Notes under the pieces: generated by a model | Seen by the model: the letters and a program-made list of their open reading frames with translations, nothing else | Told to the model about the DNA's origin: nothing | Databases searched by the model: none | Made by a program: the position numbers and the translations under genes | DNA from: Selenomonas bovis DSM 23594 | Lineage (GTDB): Bacteria > Bacillota > Negativicutes > Selenomonadales > Selenomonadaceae | Direction: 5' to 3' | NCBI RefSeq assembly: GCF_000381005.1 | Contig: NZ_KB908380.1 | Span: 124,001-188,000 of the forward strand | DNA: 64,000 nt | In this document: piece by piece, positions 3,018 to 35,199 of the stretch | How positions within the stretch are numbered: the stretch's first letter is position 1 | How the letters are laid out: each line of letters opens with the position of its first letter

Positions 3018-3031
3018 AAATACGCGCTCCT

Positions 3032-3192
3032 TTCCCGCTGCCCGATGGATCCAGCATGTTTCAAGCAACTGTCTACATAGTTCGCCCTTTAGAAAAGAAA
3101 CTCCTTCCCATCGCCAGCAAAAAAAGAGGCATTCGCCTCTCAGAATCATCAGCCATTAGTATTCTTACTTCTCGACAACATCTTTCATTTTT
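3032..3192 (-). repeat. Copy 1 of a pucR-tail/terminator/leader repeat
   Basis: Read on the minus strand this holds, in order: seven codons like the end of the PucR gene (MKDVVEK-stop against MKDIVEKQE-stop), a GAGGC terminator, and an ~85-base stretch shared with 4929-5013 that contains GGGCGAACTATG, AGTTGC and ATCGGGCAGCGGGAA. The leader can form two adjacent hairpins (GGC-AACT with AGTTGC, and TGC with GCA). It leads directly into the ribosome binding site of the gene at 3017. Confidence 0.6.
3119..3139 (-). terminator. Rho-independent terminator
   Basis: On the minus strand GAGGC-gaat-GCCTC is followed by seven T residues. It lies just after a pucR-like 3' remnant and about 100 bases before the exported gene starting at 3017, so it ends whatever transcript once came from the right. 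Confidence 0.6.
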
Positions 3193-3199
3193 AAAGGCG

Positions 3200-4739: not shown

Positions 4740-4897
4740 GGTGCTCCGGATTTGCGCGGATGCGCTGTATCTCTCTAGGAGACAAACCGGAGGCGTAGCG
4801 GCAAAACGCTCCATCGCGTTTTGTGCTGAGGATTGTAGGGCGACTGGAGGACAACGCAGACGCGTGAAGACGGAGTGCCGAATTAATCAGTGGTTCC
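4721..4897. repeat. MITE-like element, copy A
   Basis: The ends are inverted repeats: GGAACCGCTGATTAA at 4721-4735 and its near-complement TTAATCAGTGGTTCC at 4883-4897. The interior (gaggtgctccgg... gaagacggagtgc) matches copy B at 35200-35360 in the opposite orientation. The element is 177 bases, has no coding capacity of its own, and supplies the last codons and stop of the transposase remnant. Confidence 0.7.
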
Positions 4898-4928
4898 TCA
4901 AAGCGCCTGCCTCGGCGAGCAGGCGATC

Positions 4929-5113
4929 TTCCCGCTGCCCGATACTTCCGGCATTTTTCAGGCAACTACTTGCATAGTTCGCCCTGCGGAAAGGGAAATC
5001 CTTCCCGTTGACGACAAATAAAAAAGAGGCTCCCGCCCCTTCTGTCATTCAGCAGCACCACTATCAGCAAACAGCATCATTCCTGTTTCTCGACAATGTC
5101 TTTCATCTTGAAG
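4929..5113 (-). repeat. Copy 2 of the pucR-tail/terminator/leader repeat
   Basis: On the minus strand this runs from the last codons of the intact pucR gene through its terminator into a leader-like stretch (GGGAAGGATTTCC, GGGCGAACTATG, AGTTGCC, ATCGGGCAGCGGGAA) clearly related to 3032-3192. Here no gene follows; the stretch ends near the MITE at 4897. Differences between the copies partly keep the two predicted hairpins (GCC against GCT opposite GGC). Confidence 0.6.
5020..5041 (-). terminator. Terminator of the pucR-type gene
   Basis: On the minus strand AGGGGC-ggga-GCCTCT is followed by TTTTTTA, 36 bases after the stop codon of the regulator. Confidence 0.65.
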
Positions 5114-6261
5114 TAATCACCAACGTAATACGCGAGCATGTAGTCGAAGCAGACGACGGCGTCGTCGAAGTCCGCGCCGGTGATTTCCTTGATCTTGTTG
5201 ATGCGGTAGCTCACGGTGTTGCGGTGCGCGTACATGGCGCGCGCCGTCTCCTGCAGGCTGTTCATGTGGAAGAGATAGTAGCGCAGCGTCGGCGCGAGCT
5301 GCGCGTTGTGCTGCTCATCGTAGCGGAGAAGCGGCACGAGCAGCGACTCGTAGAGCTTGCGCAGCGTGCGCATGTCCTTGAGCGCGAAAAAGACGCTGTA
5401 GACGCCGATGTCGTCGAACTGCATGACCGGCTTTTCCGTGAGGCGCGCGACCTCGAGCGCCGCCTCCGCCTGCTGGTAGGCCTCCGTGAGCCCCGCGTAC
5501 TCCATGTGGATCTGGCTCTCGCCGCAGAACTGCGGCGCGGCCTCCTTCGGCAGGGCCGCGAGCAGTTTCTCCGAGACCGCGAAACTCTCCTCCGGGTTCT
5601 TGTGGAAGATGATGAGCAGCAGATAATTCTGCTGGAAGAAGAGCAGATACGGACGGCGCAGATGGTTGAGCATGCGTTTCCAGCTCGCGACGATGAATTG
5701 CTTCTCGCTTTCCTGGATGGTCTCCCGGCGCAACTCGTAGAGCTTGAGCCGGAACGCCGTATGCGGATACATGCCGCCGCTCAGCGCCTGCAGGTAGTCG
5801 TCTTTCTGGCAGCTCGAGGAGATGACGCCGCGCACGAGCATCTCGAAGTTCAGCTGGTTCTGCTGCGCGAGCAGCAGGCGCTTGCCGTAGTCCTGCACGA
5901 TGTCGGCGAAGCGGATGTGCCAGGGGATCGTGAAGAGCGCGAAATCCTTCTGCGCGCAGTACGCGAGCACGTTTTCGGAGATGTCCTGCTCCGTCAGATA
6001 TTTGCCGATGTTGAGGATGAGGCCGCTCGCGCGGTAGCGCACGAGCTGCTCGATGAACGCTTGCAGCCACCCCTCCCGGCGCTCGCACATGAGCCCCGTC
6101 GTGATGACGAGCTCGCCGCCGCGCAGGAATTTGACCGTGTCGATGTCCTCGCAAAGCTGCACCCACGAGCATTCCCGCGTGAGCCCGGAGTCGCCTGTGA
6201 GCTTGTGGATCTGATATGTTTTCGCCGTTTCCTGGTAAATCTTCTGAATCTGTAACGACAA
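5077..6261 (-). CDS. PucR-family transcriptional regulator
   Basis: The likely start is a TTG at 6261 (SLQIQKIYQ...) because GGGGAGGTGA lies 7 bases before it; an upstream ATG at 6300 has no such site. That gives 394 residues. The N-terminal PucR domain has the family's LTGDSGLTREC..VQ pattern (residues ~20-150). The C-terminus (~340-390) is the PucR-type helix-turn-helix: SLQETARAMYAHRNTVSYRINKI is the family hallmark. Family members respond to metabolites and control catabolic genes. It lies downstream of, and in the same direction as, the permease and Etf-linked oxidation operon and is the obvious candidate to control them; that is inference. Confidence 0.85.
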   Translation of the reverse strand: MSLQIQKIYQETAKTYQIHKLTGDSGLTRECSWVQLCEDIDTVKFLRGGELVITTGLMCERREGWLQAFIEQLVRYRASGLILNIGKYLTEQDISENVLAYCAQKDFALFTIPWHIRFADIVQDYGKRLLLAQQNQLNFEMLVRGVISSSCQKDDYLQALSGGMYPHTAFRLKLYELRRETIQESEKQFIVASWKRMLNHLRRPYLLFFQQNYLLLIIFHKNPEESFAVSEKLLAALPKEAAPQFCGESQIHMEYAGLTEAYQQAEAALEVARLTEKPVMQFDDIGVYSVFFALKDMRTLRKLYESLLVPLLRYDEQHNAQLAPTLRYYLFHMNSLQETARAMYAHRNTVSYRINKIKEITGADFDDAVVCFDYMLAYYVGDYFKMKDIVEKQE

Positions 6262-6406
6262 GAAGCTCACCTCCCCGAAAAACCATCCTGCTGTCCGCAT
6301 ATCAAAAATCAGCCATCGGACGCACGACTTTCACACGCAATAACGCACGGAATAGGCACAGCCCTCAAGAGAGGGGCGATGTGCCTATGAAATCGTGCCT
6401 GCCCTG

Positions 6407-8038
6407 TCAGCTGAACAGGTGATAGAAGCCGAGCACCGTGCAGACGCCGCAGAGGATCGCGAAATAGGGAAGCATGCCGCACTTCTTGAGCGCGGCGCCG
6501 TTCTCCTCCGCCTCGAGCGTGCTCGCGGGGAAGACGCCTTTGTCCTGGATGTAATGGCGGAAGCAGAAGACGGGCAGGATCATCGCGCAGATGATGAGGC
6601 CGATGACGATGTTCGTCGTGCTGATCTTCGCTGCGGCAACGCCGAGGAACGCGAGATTGCAGAAGCTCAGAAGCACGTTGAAGCCGAGAAGCACGGTCGG
6701 CGCGCGGAACGGACGCAGGGCGTCGGCGCGGTCGATGCGATGAATCCAGCCGGACTGGAGATTGAGCCAGTTGAAGAGGATGTAGCCGCAGTTCGAGGCG
6801 AGGAGCACGACCATATAGTCAGACATCATGAGCAGGATGAGATTGAACGAGAGATCCGTGAGCATCGCGTAGATCGGCGAGCCGTGCTTGTTGACCTTCG
6901 TGAGGTAGCGCGGCAGCCAGCCGTCGACGCTCGCCTGATAGAGCGTGCGAGACGAGCCTGCCATCGACGTCATGACGGCGAGCGCGATGGAGAGCAAGAG
7001 CATGACGACGATGAAGTTCGTGAGCGTCGCGCCGCCGTGGAGCAGGTCGCCGAGCGCGCGGGCCACGCCCGAGCCGGCGACGATTTCCGGCGCGCGCAGC
7101 CCGTCGAGCCCGAGGGAGCCCTCGAAGACGAACGGCACGATGGAGAACATGAGGATGCAGAGCAGGCCGGAGAAGACGAGCGACTTGATGACATCCGTCT
7201 TCGGATGCTTGAACTCGCTCGTGTAGCAGACGCAGGTCTCGAACGCGTAGGTGGACCAGGCGGCGACATACATGCCGCTGAGGAAGATGCCGATCCCTTC
7301 AAAGTCCCAGGCGCCATTCAGCGGGACGAACGGCTGGAAGTTCGCCATATCGACGTCGCCCGCGAGGAGCGGCCCGACGGAGCAGAGCAGGAGCGGCAGC
7401 AGGCCGGCCATCGAGAGGATCATCGTGATCTTCGCGGCCTTCGAGATGCCGAAGTACTGCGCGGTGAAAATGCTGATGAGGATGAACGCTCCGAGGAAGA
7501 ATGTCGCGTTCAGCCGGAGCGTCAGACCGTCGATGGCCCAGCTGAGGTCGGCAATCGTGTACTGCCACGTCATGACGGCGGAGTCCGCCGGGAAGATGCT
7601 CGTGAGCAGGTAGCCTGCCATGAGCCCCGTGCCGATCGCGAGGATCGGCGTCCAGGCGATCCAGTTGCACCAGACGGAGAGCGGCGCGATGAACTTGCTG
7701 TACGGCAGCCAGCCGATGGAGCCGTAGACGGAGGCGCCGCCCGACTTATTCGGGAAGAGGCCGGAAATCTCGGCGTACGTGAACGCCTGGAAGAAGCCCA
7801 TCGTCACAGAGAGCGCCCAGATGAGGCAAGCCGGCGTACCAACCTGGTCAGCGAGGGCTCCGACGGAAAACAGCACGAGCGCGGGAACGCCGCTGGCGAT
7901 GAAGAAGACATCGATCCAGGAAAGCGACCGCTTCAGCGTGTTGACATGACCATGAATCGTTGATTCCACGGCAGGCGCACCAGCGGGAGAACCCACGGAT
8001 TCGCTCCCCACCGGTGGACGAAGTAGTAGATCACTCAT
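6407..8038 (-). CDS. APC-superfamily amino acid permease
   Basis: The start at 8038 (MSDLLLRPPVG) is preceded by GGAGGGC; it gives 543 residues. About twelve hydrophobic helices fill residues ~60-540. The N-terminal helix region (LSWIDVFFIASGVPALVLFSVG) is the usual APC entry, followed by FTYAEISGLFPNKSGGASVYG, the conserved loop of the family. It should be a proton-coupled or exchange transporter for an amino acid or amine. It lies between the PucR regulator and the Etf-linked oxidation operon, so it may import that operon's substrate. Its leader has a promoter and an early terminator. Confidence 0.85.
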   Translation of the reverse strand: MSDLLLRPPVGSESVGSPAGAPAVESTIHGHVNTLKRSLSWIDVFFIASGVPALVLFSVGALADQVGTPACLIWALSVTMGFFQAFTYAEISGLFPNKSGGASVYGSIGWLPYSKFIAPLSVWCNWIAWTPILAIGTGLMAGYLLTSIFPADSAVMTWQYTIADLSWAIDGLTLRLNATFFLGAFILISIFTAQYFGISKAAKITMILSMAGLLPLLLCSVGPLLAGDVDMANFQPFVPLNGAWDFEGIGIFLSGMYVAAWSTYAFETCVCYTSEFKHPKTDVIKSLVFSGLLCILMFSIVPFVFEGSLGLDGLRAPEIVAGSGVARALGDLLHGGATLTNFIVVMLLLSIALAVMTSMAGSSRTLYQASVDGWLPRYLTKVNKHGSPIYAMLTDLSFNLILLMMSDYMVVLLASNCGYILFNWLNLQSGWIHRIDRADALRPFRAPTVLLGFNVLLSFCNLAFLGVAAAKISTTNIVIGLIICAMILPVFCFRHYIQDKGVFPASTLEAEENGAALKKCGMLPYFAILCGVCTVLGFYHLFS

Positions 8039-8091
8039 GATAAAGCCCTCCAATCCCAAAAGAAAAATAAATGCGATACGAAGTTCTTGAG

Positions 8092-8132
8092 AAAACAAAA
8101 GGCCTCCATGGACCAACGGGTCCATGGAGGCC
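8092..8132 (-). terminator. Strong terminator in the permease leader
   Basis: A 14-base-pair perfect stem (GGCCTCCATGGACC and its complement, four-base loop) is followed on the minus strand by TTTTGTTTT. It lies ~25 bases after the likely transcription start and ~55 bases before the permease start codon, so it may act as an attenuator. It could also end the upstream Etf operon. Confidence 0.75.
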
Positions 8133-8161
8133 TCATCGCCTCATCTCTATCGTATGAATGA

Positions 8162-8190
8162 AGTATAGCACAGCTTCTTTCATACAACAA
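8162..8190 (-). promoter_or_regulatory. Promoter of the permease gene
   Basis: On the minus strand TTGTTG is separated by exactly 17 bases from TATACT. No other good promoter lies between the terminator and the permease start. Confidence 0.55.
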
Positions 8191-8216
8191 TGAGCCGATT
8201 GAACAAAAAACAGGGC

Positions 8217-8230
8217 GATGATTGTGTACG
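8217..8230. promoter_or_regulatory. Candidate operator, ATGATTGTG motif
   Basis: The sequence GATGATTGTGTACG lies ~30 bases upstream of the permease -35 box. A closely related motif occurs twice upstream of the aldehyde dehydrogenase operon promoter (16887-16899 and 16921-16933). Shared upstream motifs suggest one regulator for both units. Confidence 0.35.
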
Positions 8231-8250
8231 ATAAACAATATGTGTATTTA

Positions 8251-10383
8251 TCAAGAGGACGCTGTTAACATTTCTCCATCACTTTCCTCTGTTTTGTCGG
8301 CAGAAAGGCAATCAGCGATCAGCTCGGCGATGTCTTTGACGGCAAGCTCTTTCTCCATGCCTTCCGTCTTCACGGCGTCATCAAACATCGCGAGGCAGTA
8401 CGGGCAGGCGACGGCGAGCACATCAGGATGCGCGCTCTCCTTGATCTCGCGCAGGCGCAGCGAGCTGACCTTCTCCTTCTCCGGCACATTGAACCAGGCG
8501 TTGCCGCCGCCCGCGCCGCAGCAGAAGCTCGTATCCCGGCACTTTTCCGGCTCGACGAGGGAGGCGCCCGGCAGCTTCTCTATGACCGTGCGCGGTGCAT
8601 CGTAGATGCCGTTCATCCTGCCGAGATTGCAGGGATCGTGATAGGCGATGTGCGCGAGCTTCGCGTCCTTGGCGGCCAGCGGCAGCTTGCCCTCCTGCAC
8701 GAGCTGCGCGAGGAGCTCCGTGTGGTGGATGACCTTGAGCTCGAGACCGAAGTCCTTGTACTCATGCAAGAGCGTGTTGTAGCAATGCGGGCACGCCGTG
8801 ATGAACGTCTTATCCGCATAGGGTTCGAGATACTGGACATTCTCCATCGCGAGCAGCTGGAACCTGCCCTCCTCGCCGAGGCGTTTGACGACCTCGCCGC
8901 AGCATTTCTCCTCCGCGAGGATGGCGAAGTTCACGCCAGCTGCCTGAAGCACGCGGATGATAGCGCGCGTAACTTCCTGGTTGCGCTGACCATAGGCACC
9001 CGCGCAGCCGACCCAGAAGATATAGTCAGCATCCGGATTGTCCTCGATGTCGGGAATCCCATCATCGAGCAGCCACTCCATGCGCTCATAGGACGGCATG
9101 GCGTAGGGATTGCCATTGCGTTCGACCGCAGAGAGCAACGCTGCCTGCTTGTCCATGATCTCTCCCTTGGAGAAGAGATGGCGCCTGAGATCGAGCGTGT
9201 ACTCGACATGATGGATGGAGGCAGGACACTCCTCCATGCAGGCACCGCAGTTCAGGCAGGACCAGGCGGCATTCTCCGTGATTACGCCATCCGTGAAGAC
9301 GTCGGCGCCCTCTCCTTCCTCGACGCTGTCCTCATCGAGAACGAAATCACTTGCCTCCGCCCTTTTCATGCCGAGGGACACCGGCGGCGCCTGGAGCGTC
9401 TTCTTGAGTCCCTGCACGAGCAGGCGCGGCGAGAGCTCACGTCCAGCGACGTGCGCGGGGCAGACGCGCTCACAGCGTCCGCAGTTGATGCAGGCGTCGA
9501 GCTCGAGGCAGCGCTTCCAGTCAAGGTCTTTCACTGTCGCGATGCCCATCTGCGGCTCGGCGTCATCGTCCTCCGCCATCTCCATGAGGTTAAAAGGCAT
9601 GGAGAGCTTCGCCTTCGGCACGCCAATCGTTTCGAGAAAGAGATGCACGGGGATCGCGACAATGTGGAAGAGCTTCGTAAACGGCACGATGGCGAGCATC
9701 GTGAGCGCCGCGAAGAGATGCACCCACCAGAGCACCGGATAGGCAGATGGCACGGCAGCCGCCGGCACGAATGCCGCAAAGATGCTGCCGACATAGGAGT
9801 AGCCGCCCCAGGCGACGGGATGCGCCGCGAGGCGCATGCCCTCGAGCAAGAGGCCGCTCACGCCGAGGAACAGGAGCAGGAGCAGCACGGGAACTGCGTC
9901 GCGCGTGTTCTCGAGGTAGTCAGGCTTCGCGAGCAACCGGCGTCCGAGCGCCATGAGGCAGCCCGCCACGAAGAAGAGCGCCGCCGTATCGAGTGCGAAT
10001 TCGAAGAAGAAGTAGGTGCCGTTTTTGAGGACCGTCACACCGATATGCGAGAGGAGGTCCTGCTGGAGCGCCACGGTCATCGTACCGAGCGTAAGGAGGA
10101 GCATGCCTCCGTAGATGAACCAGTGGAACGCCCCCGCAAAGGGACGGCGCGTGATCTTCTTGTGCAGGAGACCCAGGGACACCACGTTCCTGAGGCGCGC
10201 CATGCCCGTCTCCTTCGCATCCGCCACAAGCTCGGCAAGCGCCGCCTGTGGGCGGATGCCGTAGCGCAGGAAGCGCCGATAAAATCCGTAGGCCATCACG
10301 CCGATGAAGACGAGCGACAGCGGATAAATGACTGCGCCCGCGGCCTTTGGCATGAATGGCAAAAATTCCCTTACTGCATCCAT
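8251..10383 (-). CDS. Membrane Fe-S oxidoreductase, Etf:(mena)quinone oxidoreductase type
   Basis: This 710-residue protein begins at the ATG at 10383 (a GTG at 10392 is also possible). Residues ~1-250 hold about six membrane helices of the nitrate-reductase-gamma type. Two 4Fe-4S motifs follow, CINCGRCERVCP and CLNCGACMEECP, and then two CCG domains (GCAGAYG..CCGEVV, and HDPCNLG..CCGAGGG). This is the layout of the DUF224 proteins next to etfBA that pass electrons from Etf to menaquinone, known from syntrophic fatty-acid oxidisers. It is the last gene of the leftward operon, 26 bases after etfA, and probably delivers the pathway's electrons to the quinone pool. Confidence 0.8.
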   Translation of the reverse strand: MDAVREFLPFMPKAAGAVIYPLSLVFIGVMAYGFYRRFLRYGIRPQAALAELVADAKETGMARLRNVVSLGLLHKKITRRPFAGAFHWFIYGGMLLLTLGTMTVALQQDLLSHIGVTVLKNGTYFFFEFALDTAALFFVAGCLMALGRRLLAKPDYLENTRDAVPVLLLLLFLGVSGLLLEGMRLAAHPVAWGGYSYVGSIFAAFVPAAAVPSAYPVLWWVHLFAALTMLAIVPFTKLFHIVAIPVHLFLETIGVPKAKLSMPFNLMEMAEDDDAEPQMGIATVKDLDWKRCLELDACINCGRCERVCPAHVAGRELSPRLLVQGLKKTLQAPPVSLGMKRAEASDFVLDEDSVEEGEGADVFTDGVITENAAWSCLNCGACMEECPASIHHVEYTLDLRRHLFSKGEIMDKQAALLSAVERNGNPYAMPSYERMEWLLDDGIPDIEDNPDADYIFWVGCAGAYGQRNQEVTRAIIRVLQAAGVNFAILAEEKCCGEVVKRLGEEGRFQLLAMENVQYLEPYADKTFITACPHCYNTLLHEYKDFGLELKVIHHTELLAQLVQEGKLPLAAKDAKLAHIAYHDPCNLGRMNGIYDAPRTVIEKLPGASLVEPEKCRDTSFCCGAGGGNAWFNVPEKEKVSSLRLREIKESAHPDVLAVACPYCLAMFDDAVKTEGMEKELAVKDIAELIADCLSADKTEESDGEMLTASS

Positions 10384-10409
10384 TCTGCTCACCGCCCTCC
10401 TAGTTCCTT

Positions 10410-11270
10410 TCAGTCGCCGATGGCTTCCTCAAGCGCCGGCAGGACCTCATAGAGGTCGCCGACGATGCCGTAGTCCGCGAATTGGAAAATCGGCGCCTTC
10501 TTATTGTTGTTCACCGCCACGATAATCTTGGAATCCTTCATGCCGGCGAAGTGCTGAATCGCGCCAGAAATGCCGAGCGCGATGTAGAGATCCGGCTTGA
10601 CGAGCGCGCCCGTGATGCCGACCTGATGCTCCTGCGGCAGCCACTTGAGCTCCTCAGCGATGGGCCGCGAGCAGCCGATCTCCGCGCCGAGCTTCGCGGC
10701 AAGCGCCTCGACAGCGCTGATGTCTTCCTTCTTGGCGACGCCGCGCCCGAAGGAGACGATGCGCTTCGCCTTCGTGAGGTCGACGGTCTTCGCGAGCGGC
10801 TCCGTCTTCACGAGCTCCTTGCTTGGCGCGGCGGCAGCCGCGGGCGCGGCCGCGGCCTCGAAGCTCCCGGCCGTCTCTACGCCCGCGAGCGCGGAGAGCG
10901 CGACCGTGAGCACGGCCGTCTCCGTCTCGAAGGCGAAATTCCCCACGGCGATGCCGCCGTAGATCGCGCGCTTCGCCGTGAGCTTGCCATCCTGCGCGGC
11001 GAGCGAGAGCGCCTCGGTGACGCAGCCCGTATCGATGAGCTGCGCGGCGCGCGCCATGACCTCGTTGCCCTTCTTCGACGCCGGTGCGATGAGCACCGCA
11101 GCGCCTGCCGCTTCCGCGGCTGCCTTCACGGCCGCCGCCTCCTGCTCCGGGAAAGCGCTTCCCGCCTTCAGATAAACGATGCTGCCCTCTGCGAGGGGAG
11201 CTGCGAGCGCAGCGAGACGGCCTGCCGTCTCTTCTGCTGCCGCGTAGATCAATACTTTATATGCGCCCAT
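10410..11270 (-). CDS. etfA: Electron transfer flavoprotein alpha subunit
   Basis: The ATG at 11270 overlaps the etfB stop by one base (TGATG), so translation is coupled; 286 residues result. The N-terminal half is the Etf alpha/beta domain. After an Ala-Pro-rich linker (AAAAPAAAAAPSK) comes the FAD domain with its hallmarks: VSFGRGV, GCSRPIAEE, QVGITG, LYIALGISGAIQHFAGM and ADYGIVGD. The protein binds FAD and shuttles electrons from a dehydrogenase to the membrane oxidoreductase encoded next. Whether this Etf bifurcates cannot be decided from motifs alone. Confidence 0.95.
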   Translation of the reverse strand: MGAYKVLIYAAAEETAGRLAALAAPLAEGSIVYLKAGSAFPEQEAAAVKAAAEAAGAAVLIAPASKKGNEVMARAAQLIDTGCVTEALSLAAQDGKLTAKRAIYGGIAVGNFAFETETAVLTVALSALAGVETAGSFEAAAAPAAAAAPSKELVKTEPLAKTVDLTKAKRIVSFGRGVAKKEDISAVEALAAKLGAEIGCSRPIAEELKWLPQEHQVGITGALVKPDLYIALGISGAIQHFAGMKDSKIIVAVNNNKKAPIFQFADYGIVGDLYEVLPALEEAIGD

Positions 11271-12049
11271 CAGTTCATCACCTTCTCTTCCTCCAGATAC
11301 TTCACAAGCGTCTTCGCGGCCTCGGCAGGCGTGCCGTCGATCATGATGTTCTTGCGCTCCTGCTCGGGAATCTCGTAGCCGAGCATCGTGACGGCCGGCA
11401 TCTCGAGCACGCTGTCCTCGAGGCCGAGATCCTTGAGCTTCCACTGCTTGATGCGGTCGGAGCGGACCTTCATGATCTGGATGGCGGTCGGCAGGCGCGG
11501 CACGTTGATGGCGCTGCTCACCGTGAGCAGGGCCGGCAGCGGGCCTTTGACCGTCTCAGCCGTATCCTCAAGCGTGCTCACCGCCTCATAGCCGCCTTCG
11601 GTCGCCTGGAGCGCCGTGACATAGCTGACCGCAGGCAGGTCGAGGCGCGCGGCGACGCGTGCGCCCGTCTGGCTGTTGTAGCCATCCTCGGAGACCTCGC
11701 CGCAGAGGACGAGATCGACGGGAGCGAGTTTCTCGACCATCTTCGAGAGAATCAGCGAGACCTGCGCCGTATCGAGCTGCTGGCGCGGGGAGACCGTGAG
11801 CAGATAGGCGTTATCTGCGCCCATCGCGAGCGCCTCCTTGAGTGTTTTGACCGCGTCGCGCGGTCCGATGGAGATGAGCGAGACCGTCGCTCCGAGCTCC
11901 TTCTTGAGCTTCACCGCCTCCTCGACGGCGTTTTTATCGTAGTCGTTGATCTTCGTGGAAAGACCGCGCAGCACGAGCTCGTTCGTCTTCTTGTCGACAT
12001 GGATCTCCGTGCTGTCCACGACATGTTTCACACAAACAACAATGTGCAT
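11270..12049 (-). CDS. etfB: Electron transfer flavoprotein beta subunit
   Basis: The start at 12049 (MHIVVCVKHVVDSTEIHVD) follows GGAGGTGT at good spacing; 259 residues. Etf-beta signatures include NDYDKNAVEEAVKLK, SIGPRDAVKTLKEALAMGADNA, and the SDRIKQWKLKDL region near the C-terminus. It forms the heterodimer with EtfA. The gene is separated from the preceding small gene by ~115 bases that contain a stem-loop at 12076-12112. Confidence 0.95.
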   Translation of the reverse strand: MHIVVCVKHVVDSTEIHVDKKTNELVLRGLSTKINDYDKNAVEEAVKLKKELGATVSLISIGPRDAVKTLKEALAMGADNAYLLTVSPRQQLDTAQVSLILSKMVEKLAPVDLVLCGEVSEDGYNSQTGARVAARLDLPAVSYVTALQATEGGYEAVSTLEDTAETVKGPLPALLTVSSAINVPRLPTAIQIMKVRSDRIKQWKLKDLGLEDSVLEMPAVTMLGYEIPEQERKNIMIDGTPAEAAKTLVKYLEEEKVMN

Positions 12050-12075
12050 GCCAGACACCTCCTATATACAGAAAC

Positions 12076-12112
12076 GCCGGGAGATGTACGCCTCATCTCT
12101 GCATCTCCCGGC
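12076..12112. other. Intercistronic stem-loop between the small gene and etfB
   Basis: GCCGGGAGATG at 12076-12086 is complementary to CATCTCCCGGC at 12102-12112. The minus-strand side is not followed by a T-run, so it looks like an mRNA processing or stabilising hairpin rather than a full terminator. Confidence 0.5.
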
Positions 12113-12164
12113 ATTTCCCGGCTTTTCTCACATGAGCCGCCAGAAACGGCTCGCAAAAGCTGCC

Positions 12165-12365
12165 TCAGCTCTCAAGCTCTTCTTTCGTGTAGCCCGGCAG
12201 GCAGCGGCAGGCTTCCTGCTCGTGCATCCACGTGAGATAGAGCATGCGATCCTGATGCATCTTCTTAATCGCCTCGTCATTCACCGTGTGCTGATGGAGA
12301 TACTCCGTCATCCGCCAAGGCTCGACTTCGTAGTAACCGTCTTTCTTTACAACCTTCTCAGCCAT
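12165..12365 (-). CDS. Small 66-residue protein of the Etf operon, unknown
   Basis: The ATG at 12365 sits 3 bases after the stop of the Fe-S gene, with GAGGTG overlapping that stop, so the gene is almost certainly translated. The protein is charged, has no membrane helix and carries a single CRC pair (EACRCLPGY) near the C-terminus, plus WRMTEYLHQH and YLTWMHEQE. I do not recognise a family. Its place between the Fe-S subunit and EtfB suggests an accessory subunit or assembly factor of the oxidase complex. Confidence 0.65.
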   Translation of the reverse strand: MAEKVVKKDGYYEVEPWRMTEYLHQHTVNDEAIKKMHQDRMLYLTWMHEQEACRCLPGYTKEELES

Positions 12366-12368
12366 TTC

Positions 12369-13586
12369 TCACACCTCGATTCCCATGCAGTAAGCGACGA
12401 CTTCCAGGATGTGCACCGGCTCGATGTTGATGCCGGACTTCGTCTTCGTCTCGGCGAACATGTCCTTGCAGTGCGGGCACGCGAGCAGCAGCACCTCGGC
12501 GCCGACATCGTTCGCGTGGCGCAGGCGGCGCACGCCGATCTTGTAGGCGATATCCGGCAGCGCCTTGCGGAACGCGCCGGAGACGCCGTTGCCGCAGCAG
12601 TACTTCCACTGGAGAATCGGCTTCTCGATATCAGCGTGCGTGCCAGGCAGGGCCGCGATGATCTCGCGCGGCGCCTGGTAATTGCCGCAAAGCTTGTTGA
12701 GGCTGCACGGATCATGGTACGTGACATTCTTATTGTACGGCTTCACGAACGCGATCTTATCCGCCTTGATGAGGTCGTTGACGTAGTCCGTGATGTAGAC
12801 AACCTCGAACGGCAGCGTGCCGCAGTAGCGCGGATACTCCTTGATGAAGTAGGAGTACTCATGCGGGTTGACGAGGATGACCGTCTTGGCACCAGCGGCT
12901 TTGAGGTCGGCAACGTTCTTCTTTGCCGCCTCAACCCATTTGTCCTCATCCGTCTCGTAAAGCTCGCCCGTCGTGACGTGCGGATGCTTGAGGATGCCGA
13001 ATTCCACTCCGGCTGCCTTGAGGATCTTCGCCGCAGCGATCGGCACTTCGCGCGTCTGGAACGCATTGTAGTAATCGACGAACATCATCGTCTCGCCGGA
13101 GAACGGCAGATCGAGGCCAACAGACCAGCTCGTGAGCTCCTCATCGGGACCTGCATCGTGCGCGAGGTGCTCATCGATGACCTGCTGCACCTCGTCGAAC
13201 CCGTCGTAGTCGATGCCCTGCGCGTGGAGATCGCGGCGCATCTTGCGCACGAGATCGACGGTCGTCGTCGCATAGTGGTAGAAATCGCCGCCGAACATCG
13301 TGTTCGGGCACTTGAGCTCGCACTGGCCGCACTCGAGGCAGTGAATGAACTCGTTCTTCATCTCGGGGAGACTTGCGTTGCCGCGCGCGAGCGCCAGCGT
13401 CGAGGTGTGCACGCCGTAGGACGTGTAGGACTCGTTGCGCTCCTCGACGTAGTCAGGACACCACTCACGGCAGAATTTATGGCGGCAGGCAAAGACGTTG
13501 TAGCAATCCTTCGTTAATTCGTCCGAGATGGGCGCATCCTTTTTGACCGGCTCATCGTAGAATTCCTTATAGCTGAGTATTTCCAT
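12369..13586 (-). CDS. (Fe-S)-binding CCG-domain oxidoreductase subunit
   Basis: The start at 13586 (MEILSYKEFY) has GGAGGG six bases upstream; 405 residues. The N-terminus has an unusual Cys set (CYNVFACRHKFCREWCP) and a normal CLECGQCELKCP 4Fe-4S motif. CCG-type half-domains follow (HDPCSLNKLCG, KYCCGNGVSG, LLACPHCKDMF). Such proteins are the Fe-S partner of GlcD-like FAD oxidases in glycolate or lactate oxidation. Here it lies directly after the FAD oxidase (33 bases) and before the Etf genes, so it probably relays electrons from flavin to Etf. Confidence 0.85.
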   Translation of the reverse strand: MEILSYKEFYDEPVKKDAPISDELTKDCYNVFACRHKFCREWCPDYVEERNESYTSYGVHTSTLALARGNASLPEMKNEFIHCLECGQCELKCPNTMFGGDFYHYATTTVDLVRKMRRDLHAQGIDYDGFDEVQQVIDEHLAHDAGPDEELTSWSVGLDLPFSGETMMFVDYYNAFQTREVPIAAAKILKAAGVEFGILKHPHVTTGELYETDEDKWVEAAKKNVADLKAAGAKTVILVNPHEYSYFIKEYPRYCGTLPFEVVYITDYVNDLIKADKIAFVKPYNKNVTYHDPCSLNKLCGNYQAPREIIAALPGTHADIEKPILQWKYCCGNGVSGAFRKALPDIAYKIGVRRLRHANDVGAEVLLLACPHCKDMFAETKTKSGINIEPVHILEVVAYCMGIEV

Positions 13587-13619
13587 TTCCAGCCCTCCCT
13601 TTCTATCATGCAAATCATC

Positions 13620-15146
13620 TCAGTAGGCAAGATGCAGGTTGTACTTTCCGGGGTTCATGATGTTATTCGGATCGAACATCTTCTTGATCCGCTTCATGAG
13701 ATCGAACTGACCGTCTGCGAGTTCCTTGTCGATGAGGACATCGATATCGCCCTCGCGGCAGGCGCCGTGGCAGATGGAGATGGAGCCGCCGAGCTCTACG
13801 GCGAGTTCTGCGATCTCGCGCTTCATGTCGAGCCAGCGCTCCCAGAGCTCCGGCGTCATCGCGAGCTCATTGATGAAGACATCGACCTCGGCGAGATAGT
13901 CGCCCCAGGTACGGTACGGACCGCCCGTGTAGATGAAGCAGCCGGCGTCATCGAAGATGCCGTCGTATTTCTCGACGTACTTCTTGACGATCTTGTGCAG
14001 GCCGTGCGTGAACTCGGGGAGTTCGCTGTGGATCATGCAGTTATCCTCACAGTGCCACGACATCGTGACGACCTGACCTGCCTTGTTGCGGCAGTGCACG
14101 GCGAGATGATAGCGGTCGTGGCGGGTCGCCCAGTCGCCCCAGGCCTGTTCCTCGCCGAGGTAGTGGCCGCCCGCGGCCTTCATGATAGAAAGGGACTTCT
14201 TGCGCGCCGCGAGGACTTCGCCTTCCGTGCCGGCGAACGTCGCCATGACGACGCACTTGACGGTCTCCGGCAGGGGGATGAACGCGTCATCGTCGCGGCG
14301 CAGGAAATCGATTTTCTCATCGTCGAACATGATATAGTTGACGGCACACTTGATGCCAGAAATACCCATTTTGAAAAGTGCCTTGTAGGCCGCATCGTAG
14401 CTGGGGAAGCCGAAGTAGGACGGGAACTCGACCTCCGGTTTCGGTGCGCAGTCGAGCACGGCCTCCGTCACGACACCGAGCGTGCCCTGATGGCCGAAGA
14501 AGAGCTCGAGCATGCGGAACCCGGCGGAGGAGTTGCGGCATTTCTTCGAGCCGCCCTTGCCGACGCGGACGATCTGACCGTCGGGGAGGACGACCTCCAT
14601 GCTGCAGACGAGGTTCGCGGGATGGCCGGAGCCTGCGCCCGCGACGCTCCAGCCGTTCGTTCCGATGCGGCCGCCGATGACGGCCGTGCCGTAGGAGGCG
14701 GGATCATCCGGATAATACATGCCGACTTTCGCGAGGACTTTGTTGAGCTCCTGCATATTGACGCCCGGCTGCACCGTGACCGTGCGGTTGATGTCGTCGA
14801 CCTCGAGGATCTCCGCCATGCGCTTCATATCGAGGCAAATGCCCTTGTTGAGCGGGAACGCGCCATCCGCGAGGCCGCAGCCAGCGCCGCGGGGCACGAC
14901 GGGCAGTCGGTACTTGTTCGCGAGCTTCATGACCTCGGAGACTTCATCCGTGTTGCCCGGCAGGACGACGACATCGGGGATGTGATCCTCCCAGCGCTGC
15001 ATCGGGAACGGGGCGCAGGACGCGGCGCGGATCGCGCGGTCGTGCATGCTCGTCATGACGTTTTCCTTGCCGACGATGTCCTCGAGCTCCTCGATGTGGT
15101 CGGCGACATTGCCGTAGTTAAACTTGCTGAAATCTATTTTGCTCAT
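13620..15146 (-). CDS. FAD-binding oxidase of the GlcD superfamily, divergent active site
   Basis: The 508-residue protein starts at 15146 after GAGGAGGAGTG. The PCMH-type FAD domain is clear: DVVVLPGNTDEVSEVMKLAN, the PRGAGCGLADGAFP loop, IGGRIGTNGWSVAGAGSG, FFGHQGTLGVVTEAVL. The C-terminus ends FDPNNIMNPGKYNL as in the family. However, the two catalytic-domain hallmarks kept by the paralogue at 33744 (GHAGDGN and GEHGIG) are replaced by WHCEDNCMIHSE and SICHGACREGD. A substrate other than a simple 2-hydroxy acid is therefore likely. With its neighbours it would reduce Etf. Confidence 0.8.
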   Translation of the reverse strand: MSKIDFSKFNYGNVADHIEELEDIVGKENVMTSMHDRAIRAASCAPFPMQRWEDHIPDVVVLPGNTDEVSEVMKLANKYRLPVVPRGAGCGLADGAFPLNKGICLDMKRMAEILEVDDINRTVTVQPGVNMQELNKVLAKVGMYYPDDPASYGTAVIGGRIGTNGWSVAGAGSGHPANLVCSMEVVLPDGQIVRVGKGGSKKCRNSSAGFRMLELFFGHQGTLGVVTEAVLDCAPKPEVEFPSYFGFPSYDAAYKALFKMGISGIKCAVNYIMFDDEKIDFLRRDDDAFIPLPETVKCVVMATFAGTEGEVLAARKKSLSIMKAAGGHYLGEEQAWGDWATRHDRYHLAVHCRNKAGQVVTMSWHCEDNCMIHSELPEFTHGLHKIVKKYVEKYDGIFDDAGCFIYTGGPYRTWGDYLAEVDVFINELAMTPELWERWLDMKREIAELAVELGGSISICHGACREGDIDVLIDKELADGQFDLMKRIKKMFDPNNIMNPGKYNLHLAY

Positions 15147-15258
15147 TCTACACTCCTCCTCCTACTCTCTATGACACACAGTTCGAATGATTGCCAAAAA
15201 TCAATTTACTGCATCGGCCTCACCTCCCCAATGGGGTGGCCCGCCCCATCTGATATCG

Positions 15259-16737
15259 TCAGCCCTCGAACCAGCCGATGGGCGCGACATTCAAGTTCAC
15301 GTTGATCTGCTTGACCTCCGTGTATTCCTCATACCCGTAGGTGCCGAGCTCGCGGCCGCCGTTGCCGCTCTCCTTGTAGCCGCCCCACGGCGCTTCGTTG
15401 TACGTGGAATGATAGCCGTTGATCCAGGTGATGCCTGCCCGCAGCGCCTTGATCACGCGCATCGCCTTCGCGCCGTCCTGCGTGAAGCAGGCACCGGCGA
15501 GGCCGTAGCGCGTATTGTTCGCCATGCGGATCGCATCTGCCTCGTCCTCGAAGACCTGCACCGCGAGCACCGGACCGAAAATCTCATCCTTGACGATGCT
15601 CATATCCTCCGTCGTATCCGTGAAGATCGTCGGCTCGACGAAGAATCCTTTCGCGAGGTCTCCCTCCACCATGCGGTGGCCGCCGCAGGCGAGCGTCGCG
15701 CCCTCCTGCACGCCGAGACCGATGTAGTGGAGGACTTTCTCCATCTGGCGCTCCGAGACGAGCGGCCCCATCTCGACGCCAGGCATGAGACCCGGCCCGA
15801 CTTTGATCTTCTTCGCACGTTCGACGAGGCGGGCGATGAACTTCTCCGCGATGCTCTTCTCGAGCAGCAGCCGCGAGCCCGCCGCGCAGATCTGCCCCTG
15901 TCCGGCGAAAATCGCGAAGAGCGCGAAGTCCACGGCCGTCTCGAAATCCGCATCGGCGAAGACGATGTTCGGCGACTTGCCGCCAAGCTCCAAAGAGACG
16001 CGCTTGAGGTTGCCGACAGACGCGGCGAGGATCTTCTTGCCTGTCACCGTGCCGCCTGTGAACGCAATCTTGTCGACGTCCGGGTGCTCGCTGAGCGCCG
16101 CGCCGACCGTCGCGCCCGCGCCGAGCACGAGGTTCGCCACGCCCTTGGGGATGCCGACCTTCTCCATGAGGCCGAAGAACTTGATCGTCGAAAGCGGCGT
16201 GATCTCCGCTGGCTTGAAGACGACCGTGTTCCCGGCAGCGAGCGCCGGCGCCATCTTCCACATCGCCATGAGCAGCGGATAGTTCCAGGGAACGATCTGC
16301 GCGCAGACGCCGATTGGCTCGCGCACCGTGAGCGCCTGCATGTCCTCCGGCACATCGTAGGTGACACCGTAGGGCTTCGTCGCGAGGCCTGCGTAGTAGC
16401 GCAGGCAGTTCGCCGCGTCGCTCACATCGCACTCTGCCTCCCTGAGCGGCTTGCCGCTGTCGAGCACCTCGAGGTGGGCGAAGTCCTTTGCCTCAGCTTC
16501 GAGCGCATCGGCGAGTGCGAAGAGGAGTGCTGCCCGCTCCCCTGCTTTCATCTCGCGCCAGGAGGAATGGTCGAATGCCTCACGCGCCGCCTTGACAGCT
16601 ACATCGACATCTTCCTTCGCTCCCTCGTAGACTGTTCCGATCACCGACTGGTCGGCGGGGTTGATGATGTCCCGCGTCACGCCGGACTTTGACGGCACCC
16701 ACGCGCCATCGATATACATGCGTCCCGGCTCTGCCAT
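15259..16737 (-). CDS. NAD(P)-dependent aldehyde dehydrogenase, betaine-aldehyde type
   Basis: The start at 16737 (MAEPGRMYIDG) has GGGAGC upstream; 492 residues, the usual length. Family landmarks in order: PWNYPLLMAMWKMAPALAAGN, FKPAEITPLS, FTGGTVTGKKI, the catalytic Glu in LELGGKSPN, the catalytic Cys in GQGQICAAGSR, and KDEIFGPVLAV. It oxidises an aldehyde to the acid; closest by eye to BetB/ALDH9-like enzymes. It is the first gene of the leftward Etf operon, 112 bases ahead of the FAD oxidase. Its product or its substrate may be shared with that oxidase, so substrate naming stays open. Confidence 0.9.
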   Translation of the reverse strand: MAEPGRMYIDGAWVPSKSGVTRDIINPADQSVIGTVYEGAKEDVDVAVKAAREAFDHSSWREMKAGERAALLFALADALEAEAKDFAHLEVLDSGKPLREAECDVSDAANCLRYYAGLATKPYGVTYDVPEDMQALTVREPIGVCAQIVPWNYPLLMAMWKMAPALAAGNTVVFKPAEITPLSTIKFFGLMEKVGIPKGVANLVLGAGATVGAALSEHPDVDKIAFTGGTVTGKKILAASVGNLKRVSLELGGKSPNIVFADADFETAVDFALFAIFAGQGQICAAGSRLLLEKSIAEKFIARLVERAKKIKVGPGLMPGVEMGPLVSERQMEKVLHYIGLGVQEGATLACGGHRMVEGDLAKGFFVEPTIFTDTTEDMSIVKDEIFGPVLAVQVFEDEADAIRMANNTRYGLAGACFTQDGAKAMRVIKALRAGITWINGYHSTYNEAPWGGYKESGNGGRELGTYGYEEYTEVKQINVNLNVAPIGWFEG

Positions 16738-16777
16738 GCTCGCCAGCTCCCTTCTGATAAGACTGTACCTCATGCAC

Positions 16778-16811
16778 AAAAAGCGCTCATACCCTCGTCG
16801 GATATGAGCGC
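16778..16811 (-). terminator. Early terminator in the aldehyde dehydrogenase operon leader
   Basis: A nine-base-pair stem GCGCTCATA/TATGAGCGC is followed on the minus strand by TTTTT, and nothing T-rich follows on the plus side. The only transcripts it can stop start in the divergent intergenic region to its right, so it lies inside the operon's own leader, ~41 bases before the start codon. Confidence 0.75.
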
Positions 16812-16851
16812 CCTTGCTCTTGACTTGCTGTTTTCTTTTGATTACAATGTC

Positions 16852-16880
16852 ATTCTAGCACCGGCCCCCACAGGGGACAA
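16852..16880 (-). promoter_or_regulatory. Promoter of the aldehyde dehydrogenase-Etf operon
   Basis: On the minus strand TTGTCC and TAGAAT are separated by 17 bases. The start would fall ~35 bases ahead of the leader terminator. Confidence 0.5.
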
Positions 16881-16886
16881 CGGCAC

Positions 16887-16934
16887 GCGTCACAATCATT
16901 GACTGCAAACTTTGTTCACTGTGCACAATCAAAA
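16887..16934. promoter_or_regulatory. Two candidate operator sites, CACAATCA motif
   Basis: CGCGTCACAATCAT (16886-16899) and GTGCACAATCAAAA (16921-16934) are the complement of the ATGATTGTG motif upstream of the permease. They sit just upstream of the operon's -35 box, between the two divergent genes. Confidence 0.35.
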
Positions 16935-17023
16935 CTCCATATTTTACGCACATAAAAGCAGGAACGATGAACATCGCGTCGAATAATACTAATCAAGACA
17001 TAAAATAGAATGGAGTGAGTCCA

Positions 17024-18037
17024 ATGAAACGTATTTCCTTATTGAATCCCATCAAAACAATCATCAATACTGTAAAGGGCTTATTTCATGAAGTACCGCG
17101 CAAAGCCGTCGACTACAGCCACGCGGAGAACTGGGCCTTCCTCGCAGATACCACGGGTGCCGAGGCGGAGAACCCGCCCGCCGATGTCTTCTTCATCAGT
17201 CCGACGGCCTGCCTCGGCCGCTACGAGCCGTACTTCCTCGACCTCTCCGATCAGAAGGAGAAGGCGGCGCTTGCGAAGGTCATCCGCATGGAGAAGGGCA
17301 TCTACGACAAGCACAGCCGTTTCTTTGCGCCGTACTACCGTCAGGCGGGCTTCGAGGTCTATTCGTTCGGCGACGAGTTCCGCGAGGAGTGCCTGCGCGA
17401 CGCGCATGAGGACGTCGAGGATGCCTTCGACTATTATATGGCGCATTATAATGAAGGAAGGCCCATCATCATCGCGGGCTTCTCACAGGGCGCCGACCAT
17501 GTACTGCGCCTGCTCAAGGCGCATGCCGCCGACGAGCGCGTCACGAGCCGCCTCATCGCCGCCTATGCGATTGGCTGGACTATCACGACGGAGGAGATGG
17601 CGCGCTATCCGCAGCTGCGCTTCGCGGGCCGCGCGGACGATACGGGCGTCATCGTCGCCTTCAACAGCGAGGCGGAAAATGTCACCGACTCGCCGATCCT
17701 GCCGAAAGGCGTCCACGCGCTCGCGATCAACCCGCTCAACTGGCGCACGGACGGCACCGTCGCGGACAAGGAGCTCAACAAGGGCGCCTGCTTCGTGAGC
17801 CCGGAGGGCAAGGTCGAGACCGAGATCCCCGCGCTCACGGGCGCCTATATCGACACGCGGCGCGGCGCGCTCAAGTGCACGGACATCGGCCCGGGAGACT
17901 TCCCAGGCAAGCTCTACGACGATGGCATCTTCCACATCTACGACTACCGCTTCTTCTACCGCAACCTGCAGGAGAACGTCAGTGTCCGCATCGACGCCTA
18001 TCTCAAGGAGCACGGCAAGCCGCATAAGGCCGCCTGA
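17024..18037 (+). CDS. DUF3089 alpha/beta-hydrolase-like protein
   Basis: The ATG at 17024 follows GGAGTGAG; 337 residues. The GFSQGADHVLRLL segment (around residue 155) is an alpha/beta-hydrolase nucleophile elbow, and PADVFFISPTACLGRYEPYF plus PFYRQAGFEVYSF-like regions fit the DUF3089 family. There is no clear signal peptide. The natural substrate is unknown; lipase or esterase activity is plausible. It is transcribed away from the aldehyde dehydrogenase operon and ends in a strong terminator. Confidence 0.7.
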   Translation: MKRISLLNPIKTIINTVKGLFHEVPRKAVDYSHAENWAFLADTTGAEAENPPADVFFISPTACLGRYEPYFLDLSDQKEKAALAKVIRMEKGIYDKHSRFFAPYYRQAGFEVYSFGDEFREECLRDAHEDVEDAFDYYMAHYNEGRPIIIAGFSQGADHVLRLLKAHAADERVTSRLIAAYAIGWTITTEEMARYPQLRFAGRADDTGVIVAFNSEAENVTDSPILPKGVHALAINPLNWRTDGTVADKELNKGACFVSPEGKVETEIPALTGAYIDTRRGALKCTDIGPGDFPGKLYDDGIFHIYDYRFFYRNLQENVSVRIDAYLKEHGKPHKAA

Positions 18038-18098
18038 GCCGCGCGCGGCGGGCGCAGCGCACAACCGCCATCGCACCCCCGTACCATAGGACAGCAAA

Positions 18099-18138
18099 GA
18101 GGCGTTCCGCCACGGTCTTCCCGTGCGGAACGCCTCTT
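18099..18138. terminator. Bidirectional terminator
   Basis: GAGGCGTTCCGC and CACGG pair with CCGTG and CGGAACGCCTC across a short loop, one of the strongest hairpins in the window. It ends the DUF3089 gene and could also end the leftward ctpA transcript at 18296. Confidence 0.75.
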
Positions 18139-18295
18139 CTCTATCAATAGAAAACAAATATGACAGGCCGCCGCGCGCCCACCCGCGGCAACGCACAAAG
18201 CGGCCGCGCCTCAAACGCGGCGTATTCATGCTCCATGCACAATATCCAGCCTGCCCCCCTTGTGCAGCCTGCTGTCCGCGCTCCCAGCCCAGAGC

Positions 18296-19435
18296 TCAGA
18301 GCTTGCCGCGCAGGACTTCCTCCGCCTTCTCGAGCTGCACATCGCTCGTCGCATCCTGCGGCAGCGCGACCTCGACGTCCGGCTCGATACCGATGCCGTC
18401 GATGCAGCGGCCGCTCGGCGTGTAGTATTTCGCGATCGTGAGCTTGAGCGCATCATCGTGGTGCATGGGCACGACGACCTGCACGGAGCCCTTGCCGTAG
18501 GATTTCGTGCCGACGAGCGTCGCTGCGCCCGTATCTTGCAGCGCACCCGCGAGGATTTCCGCCGCACTCGCGCTGTTGGCGTCGATGAGCACGACGATGG
18601 GGTATTTGCTCTCCGCGAGATCCGACTCGTACGTTTCCTTCTTGCCGTTCTTTTCGATGACGGAGACGACGGTTCCCTTTGGCACGACGTGGTCCGCGAC
18701 TTCGACACAGCTCTTGATGAGGCCGCCGGGGTTCTCTCGCAAGTCAAGGATCAGCCCCTGCATGCCCTGCCCCTCGAGCTCCTGCAGCGCGCTCGCGAAC
18801 TCCCTGCCCGTATGCTCGGAGAAGGTGCCGATGCGGATGTAGCCCATACCGTCCGCGAGCATTTTCCCCGCGACGGTCTTCATCTCGATGGAGCCGCGCG
18901 TCAGCGTGTAGTCCTTGTCCTCCTCGCCCGCGCGGCGGATCGTGAGTGTGACATCCGTGCCGACCTCGCCGCGGATGTGCATGGCGACCTCCTCCGGCTG
19001 ATACTCCGTGACCGGCGTGCCGTCGACGGCGACGATCTCATCGCCCGCACGGAGTCCGGCGCTCTCTCCCGGCGTCCCCTCCATGACGGAAATGATGCTC
19101 ACGCTGCCGTCCTTGAAGCCCATGTAGACGCCGATGCCGCCGAAGCTGCCCTCCGTCTGGCTCATGAGCTGGCCGTACATCTCCGGGTCGAGATAGATAG
19201 AGTGCGGGTCGCCGAGCGCCTGCACCATGCCACTGATGGCACCGTCCATGAGTTTCTCATCATCGACATCGCCGACGTAGCGGCTCTCGATGAAGCGGCG
19301 CGCGCCGAGAAAGCGCGCGAGGTCGCCGATATGTTCCGCGCGGAAACCGACGAGATAGCAAATGCCGCCGACCGCAGCGATGCCGCCCGCGAGAAACGCG
19401 GCGAGGCAGCCTGCCATGATTTTCTTCTTGCTCAT
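18296..19435 (-). CDS. ctpA: S41-family C-terminal processing protease
   Basis: This 379-residue protein has an N-terminal signal anchor (residues ~5-30). A PDZ domain follows (SFGGIGVYMGFKDG, AGLRAGDEIVAVDG), then the S41 catalytic core with Ser in DANSASAAEILAGAL and Lys in GTKSYGKGSVQ. It acts in the periplasm, trimming or degrading proteins at a C-terminal tag. It lies downstream of the EnvC-like peptidase and ftsEX, the common Firmicute order ftsE-ftsX-M23 peptidase-ctp, which supports a role in cell-wall turnover at division. Confidence 0.95.
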   Translation of the reverse strand: MSKKKIMAGCLAAFLAGGIAAVGGICYLVGFRAEHIGDLARFLGARRFIESRYVGDVDDEKLMDGAISGMVQALGDPHSIYLDPEMYGQLMSQTEGSFGGIGVYMGFKDGSVSIISVMEGTPGESAGLRAGDEIVAVDGTPVTEYQPEEVAMHIRGEVGTDVTLTIRRAGEEDKDYTLTRGSIEMKTVAGKMLADGMGYIRIGTFSEHTGREFASALQELEGQGMQGLILDLRENPGGLIKSCVEVADHVVPKGTVVSVIEKNGKKETYESDLAESKYPIVVLIDANSASAAEILAGALQDTGAATLVGTKSYGKGSVQVVVPMHHDDALKLTIAKYYTPSGRCIDGIGIEPDVEVALPQDATSDVQLEKAEEVLRGKL

Positions 19436-35129: not shown

Positions 35130-35199
35130 CTCTTTACTCTCCTCTTTCAGAATCATGGATTCCACCAAGGCTTCCCTGCCAATCCACTCCATATCCTTA

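Follow-up and report, generated by a model that had tools for sequence, protein, structure and literature searches.

The window analysed here is the whole stretch of 64,000 nucleotides from Selenomonas bovis DSM 23594. Its central feature is a minus-strand gene (13620..15146) encoding a 508-aa FAD subunit, a member of the WHCED/CHGACREGD clade described below, with an ATG start preceded by a strong ribosome-binding site. The nearest named relative, 98% identical to this protein, is the copy in an S. bovis rumen MAG. Domain searches identified FAD_binding_4 (130.3 bits, Pfam gathering 26.4) and FAD-oxidase_C (69.9 bits, Pfam gathering 21.2), which places the protein in the GlcD-like VAO/PCMH group, and its FAD half is matched by solved VAO/PCMH relatives. 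These scores bear out the first-pass annotation of a GlcD-superfamily ORF with a normal FAD half. The GlcD equivalog model TIGR00387 scored the subunit at 231.2 bits against a cut-off of 567.9; the best E-value for this model among eight clade members was 8.7e-72, and the window protein's own E-value was similar. An AlphaFold2 model based on 11 rows reached a mean pLDDT of 62.5 and a pTM of 0.67; extended segments of the pocket region scored below 50, and the model gave no reliable view of the active site. A canonical GlcD-type paralogue at 33744-35192 retains both GHAGDGN and GEHGIG, as previously claimed, and with its GlcF-like partner it forms a canonical GlcD/GlcF-like pair in the same genome.

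Operon organization and predicted electron path

In Selenomonas, the FAD gene belongs to an operon with the order ALDH-FAD-FeS-small-EtfB-EtfA-QO713-permease-PucR, which is conserved in loci L005, L006 and L007. Locus L008 retains the genes from FAD to the permease, and no ALDH is present on its contig. All operon genes of the window lie on the minus strand. The betaine-aldehyde-dehydrogenase-like aldehyde dehydrogenase (ALDH) is located at 15259..16737, within an ORF that extends to 16779. The Fe-S partner (12369..13586, extendable to 13613 with a TTG start) contains one full CxxCxxCxxxCP motif and one full CCG motif set. EtfB (11270..12058) is followed by the 286-aa EtfA (10410..11270), whose start overlaps the EtfB stop. 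QO713 (8251..10392) is a 713-aa membrane/Fe-S protein with a nitrate-reductase-gamma-like region, Fer4 and two CCG motifs. An APC permease of the trimethylamine N-oxide (TMAO) permease family (6407..8125; NF053774, 707.9 bits, cut-off 690) and a PucR-type regulator (5077..6300) complete the operon. A DUF3089 gene on the plus strand (17015-18037) is divergent from the operon and is kept beside it in L005-L007. Two further minus-strand ORFs of 235 and 370 aa, located at 2442-4814, had no Pfam or NCBIfam match at E 0.001.

Based on its domains, QO713 is presumed to be an ETF:menaquinone oxidoreductase. The operon combines EtfAB with an Fe-S membrane protein, a gene content that would suit electron delivery to quinone via ETF. 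EtfA contains the ETF and ETF_alpha domains only and lacks the ferredoxin domain that would indicate a confurcating complex of the Ldh-EtfAB type. Since it differs in this respect from the EtfA of Acetobacterium woodii, plain ETF transfer to QO713 and menaquinone is the simplest reading, and from the domains electrons would pass from FAD to the Fe-S partner, then to EtfBA, QO713 and menaquinone.

Replacement of the metal site in the FAD subunit

The first-pass annotation had described both canonical catalytic motifs as lost and had placed two Cys/His-rich segments at the corresponding positions. Neither GHxGDGN nor GEHG occurs anywhere in the FAD subunit, although the His of GEHG is retained. 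CHGACREGD does occupy the position of GEHGIG, but WHCEDNCMIHSE does not correspond to GHAGDGN. Instead, it aligns opposite VEDATVPRS of GlcD, on the strand one element before GHAGDGN, with the ED pair retained; this placement was agreed by BLAST, MAFFT and hhalign and by four MAFFT modes applied to eight clade and eight canonical rows. The counterpart of GHAGDGNxH is the region of residues ~398-425 (FDDAGCFIYTGGPYRTWGDYLAEVD), where the clade carries an insert of ~10 residues and none of the eight members has a His. The register within this region varies by aligner (the earlier MAFFT and hhalign runs differ from the four-mode result). His393 of the paralogue is opposite D400 in all four MAFFT modes, and its His400 is opposite E420 in three modes and D422 in the fourth.

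In human D-2-HGDH (PMC7801405), the metal is bound by His434, His441 and Glu475, the substrate carboxylate is held by Arg386, the distal carboxylate by Lys401, and His476 acts as the base; activity is lost when any one of these three ligands is mutated. The equivalent set given for LctD comprises His377, His384, Glu422, His423 and Arg328 (PMC9232219).

Four minus-strand signatures define the corresponding site in the window. R342 of GDWAxRHDRY (14121..14123), the counterpart of Arg386, is retained. WHCED (residues 364-368, 14043..14057) has D368 on a conserved Asp, and its C366 falls at a pocket position on the preceding strand, presumably that of Lys401. PYxxWGDYLxE (residues 410-420, 13887..13919) lies within the region replacing GHxGDGNxH and contains no His. 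In CHGACREGD (residues 459-467, 13746..13772), C459 stands in place of the Glu metal ligand, and the base H460 is retained. By eye, HGACREG may be aligned with the YGxYR motif of VAO/PCMH proteins.

The positions of the carboxylate Arg and the catalytic His were identical in the four MAFFT modes, the Glu ligand is replaced by Cys459 and the two metal-binding His are gone. As judged from these alignments, the known metal site is absent from the FAD subunit. Residues H365, C366, C459, H460 and C463 are invariant in the clade, with three Cys in the two motifs, and together they may form a new Cys/His metal site. The earlier proposal that Cys and His line the substrate pocket is thus plausible, even though it was reasoned from an incorrect alignment. 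A metal-dependent mechanism, which had been put forward as the novelty, is not supported: the canonical enzymes are metal-dependent, and here the known site has disappeared. The broader proposal of a changed active site, and probably of a new substrate, is supported because all three metal ligands are replaced and the GlcD equivalog cut-off is missed.

A 2-hydroxy acid, or another hydroxy acid such as carnitine, could still be the substrate if the metal site had been rebuilt, perhaps on thiols (C366, C459, C463, H365). The retained Arg and base, the 30-32% overall identity with GlcD and the three invariant Cys in the two motifs are consistent with this alternative. We nevertheless regard it as improbable, given the replacement of all three ligands in a site where D-2-HGDH is inactivated by the loss of any one (PMC7801405), a score of 231 bits against the GlcD cut-off of 568, and the canonical GlcD/GlcF-like pair already present in the genome.

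Distribution of the clade and its constant partners

In a 23-row tree, the clade was monophyletic with 100/100 support and grouped on the canonical GlcD side, apart from the PYG-type rows. The signatures GDWAxRHDRY, WHCED, WGDYLxE and CHGACREGD are present in all eight full-length distinct members, down to 52-53% identity, and exceed what chance would produce because they are invariant between distant groups. Among 17 other relatives, eight carried both canonical motifs, one carried GEHG only and eight carried neither. Close copies (E <= 1e-60) are confined to one Selenomonas-type genus: they turned up in 5 of 151 family genomes, each of them one of the seven listed for that genus, in 2 of 260 genomes of the class and in 1 of 398 of the phylum. 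Outside the Selenomonas genus, full-length relatives were detected in 2 of 201 genomes from the phylum of G540. A fuller examination of the class of G1127 yielded full-length relatives in 4 of 158 genomes, with 53% identity; these loci are referred to as Chloroflexota-type because G540 is a Dehalococcoidales MAG. A Georgenia plasmid, the sole witness from Actinomycetota, encodes the first 307 FAD codons with 46% identity, and its record ends inside the FAD gene. No clade match at 1e-55 was obtained among 398 genomes from the phylum of G539, a search run with no positive control. In the phylum of G538, 6 of 267 genomes produced matches, but all seven loci contain GHxGDGN and GEHG, and none was accepted as a clade member. 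A scan of viral contigs returned two partial relatives that were left aside, and literature searches found no paper describing the WHCED/CHGACREGD clade.

A ninth member (L008/L019) carries GDWAxRHDRY and WHCED and is missing the last ~104 residues. In L008 (3846-6198), an internal loss joins the FAD and Fe-S genes, removing residues 405-508 of the former and 1-33 of the latter; either a real deletion or a misassembly would account for it. Together with the lost metal ligands, this deletion in one genus member could suggest that the FAD subunit is a decayed or inactive paralogue. Such decay is very hard to reconcile with invariant signatures at 52-53% identity between distant groups, an intact ORF, a conserved operon and constant partners; we give it very little credence, and the pseudogene reading of the FAD gene was dropped.

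The prediction that the motifs would define a clade always accompanied by etfBA held for the clade itself but not for the neighbourhood. The etfBA genes adjoin the FAD gene only in Selenomonas; inspection of the four Chloroflexota-type loci and of the Georgenia record did not recover them. A CCG Fe-S protein, by comparison, adjoins the FAD gene at every locus examined, namely the window, L005-L008, the four Chloroflexota-type loci and Georgenia. The Selenomonas Fe-S partner retains the second CCG set and has lost the first (window 12369-13613). In the Chloroflexota-type (L055 10493-11791) and Georgenia proteins, part of the first set is present (CCGGP) and the second appears as CSG/CPWS. The Fe-S partners have HKFCRExCP in common, at the position expected for the first ferredoxin cluster.

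The third module member is a conserved small protein of 66 aa (12165..12365, minus strand), whose ORF lies in the 310-nt gap between the Fe-S and EtfB genes. Conservation of the DNA runs to the end of this ORF, stop codon included, and is much lower past it; the window and L006 differ at 11 first, 7 second and 25 third codon positions. An RNA in this gap was considered and set aside, with no Rfam match in 3000-18500 and the gap holding the small ORF. In the Chloroflexota-type loci, its counterpart of 78 aa is encoded by the ORF that immediately follows the FAD gene. The two proteins aligned with a Smith-Waterman score of 64, a value that 5000 shuffles did not reach (maximum 53), and profiles built from either group recovered the other group as the next best matches (E 4e-5 to 0.03; 12,309 frames). 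The small protein is present in all nine loci where its position is visible and, using a joint profile at E <= 10, in no other fetched locus. It had no credible Pfam family match; matches with E 0.03-0.08 (two of three queries) and one plasmid match with E 0.7 were taken as chance. The constant partners of the FAD gene are thus a CCG Fe-S protein and a small protein of 66-78 aa, and we infer that the three form one enzyme.

Candidate substrate and relation to known systems

The neighbouring ALDH was best matched by the BADH model (TIGR01804) with 599.8 bits, below its equivalog cut-off of 668.6. Among PDB entries, the best match was the betaine aldehyde dehydrogenase of S. aureus (513 bits, compared with 473 for ALDH1A1). 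The protein is also 52% identical to a P. megaterium BetB encoded beside an iron alcohol dehydrogenase, with which it has the NYP, WK and APWGG residues in common. Its nearest plasmid relative (57-58%), likewise betaine-aldehyde-dehydrogenase-like, is encoded on Bacillus badius pPM400 (L061 3466-10464), in an operon that also comprises hemA, the subunits of a HODM/DmmA-like haem N-demethylase set and an NCS1 permease. The B. badius permease shares 45% identity with its NCS1 counterpart at the head of the Chloroflexota-type FeS-FAD operon. In Ensifer and Gemmobacter, more distant NCS1 relatives (~32%) have betA-annotated genes as neighbours, and two others are located beside agmatinase-family genes.

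A TMAO-permease-family gene above the cut-off was found in 4 of 151 family genomes, with a fifth strong match split between contigs; these are exactly the five genomes in which the FAD gene occurs. Relatives of the window permease are located beside DmmABC in Paracoccus, beside EtfAB/QO713-like and GCV_T genes in Paraburkholderia and, as a member of the same family, beside a copper amine oxidase in Ensifer. The permease name leaves the substrate unfixed because its margin is 18 bits and the family includes this last member. At the Chloroflexota-type loci, no ALDH of the betaine-aldehyde-dehydrogenase-like type and no ETF was found; their surroundings contain cytosine-deaminase-like, hydantoinase and molybdenum hydroxylase genes, which fit other N-compounds. 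CutC and MTTB-family genes were absent from the window's genome (0/1 each), and domain searches of the operon detected no aromatic-degradation gene. Independent lines, namely the permease, the ALDH and the plasmid and NCS1 neighbours, therefore indicate small cationic amine compounds.

Within this class, the module may oxidize a C-N bond, either deaminating an amine or removing a methyl group from an N-methyl amine or amino acid (dimethylglycine, sarcosine or creatinine-derived sarcosine). The ALDH would take up the aldehyde set free, and the system would be an O2-independent stand-in for HODM/Dmm-type N-demethylases. The haem N-demethylase set in the operon of the nearest plasmid ALDH is consistent with this possibility, as are the DmmABC and the EtfAB/QO713-like and GCV_T neighbours of the permease relatives. 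R342 could hold a carboxylate, and the Chloroflexota-type locus pairs its NCS1 permease with nearby cytosine-deaminase-like and hydantoinase genes. However, the alcohol-deprotonating base H460 is retained in all eight members, and the ALDH looks like a betaine aldehyde dehydrogenase, not like an enzyme acting on formaldehyde. C-N oxidation is an alternative that we consider rather unlikely.

Among cationic amines, a choline-type alcohol best explains the retained base and the ALDH, and N-demethylation explains the retained Arg and the HODM neighbours. Our tentative preference, held with somewhat less than even confidence, is that the FAD subunit belongs to a three-part O2-independent dehydrogenase acting on a small cationic amine, with a choline-type amino alcohol as the first choice; both the substrate class and choline are deduced from the comparisons above. 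The Arg speaks against choline, since the counterpart of R342 binds a carboxylate in D-2-HGDH (PMC7801405) and choline has none. In such an enzyme, Trp, Tyr, Cys and Glu would have taken over what was once a carboxylate-plus-metal pocket. H460 would accept the hydroxyl proton and hydride would move to FAD N5, after which the neighbouring ALDH would convert the aldehyde to the acid (betaine, if the substrate is choline). Anaerobic respiration with fumarate occurs in this bacterial group, and the menaquinone route would couple the oxidation to it. The complete scheme, in which a rumen propionate/succinate former oxidizes choline or a close quaternary amine alcohol to betaine via ETF and menaquinone, independently of O2, at a metal-free or thiol-based site and with no trimethylamine, is a more speculative proposal that we would not expect to hold in full. 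CJ25-type choline oxidation was rejected as the same system; the CJ25 paper points to FucO and GabD homologues (PMC12482172).

The common annotation of a GlcD-type protein is glycolate or lactate dehydrogenase, and the present clade consists of GlcD-type proteins with the whole metal site exchanged and the base and flavin half retained. Its small protein partner can escape gene callers. If the amine reading is true, choline-type compounds would have an anaerobic fate in the rumen other than trimethylamine lyase.

The FAD subunit resembles GlcD, D-lactate dehydrogenase and D-2-HGDH in its fold domains, FAD half, Arg and catalytic His, and its CCG Fe-S partner recalls GlcDF-like pairs. It differs from them in the missing metal triad, in WHCED, WGDYL and CHGACREGD, in the ~10-residue insert and in the small third protein. 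As in BetA/BetB and GbsAB, a BADH-type ALDH lies beside a putative alcohol-oxidizing enzyme and an amine permease, but those pathways start with a GMC flavoprotein or an iron alcohol dehydrogenase, whereas here a GlcD-type FAD/Fe-S/ETF system would carry out the first step. With the HODM/DmmABC N-demethylases, the locus has in common related ALDH and permease genes in the neighbourhood; those enzymes use haem and O2, whereas the window module would use neither. Acetobacterium woodii Ldh-EtfAB likewise combines a GlcD-type flavoprotein and EtfBA in one operon (PMC9232219). The window system departs from that complex in its EtfA, which lacks the ferredoxin domain, and in having a separate Fe-S subunit and a membrane Fe-S quinone-type protein, so that it probably relies on plain ETF transfer and not on confurcation. 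The FAD-FeS-FAD flavoprotein of the benzene degrader BzS1 also joins a GlcD-like flavoprotein to a CCG/HdrC-like Fe-S protein (PMC13416013). A locus from an uncultured Desulfobacterium (L010 4575-12700) contains two tandem FAD-CCG-FAD cassettes with the layout reported for BzS1. Compared by description only, the BzS1 system differs from the window module in having two flavoproteins per unit (PMC13416013).
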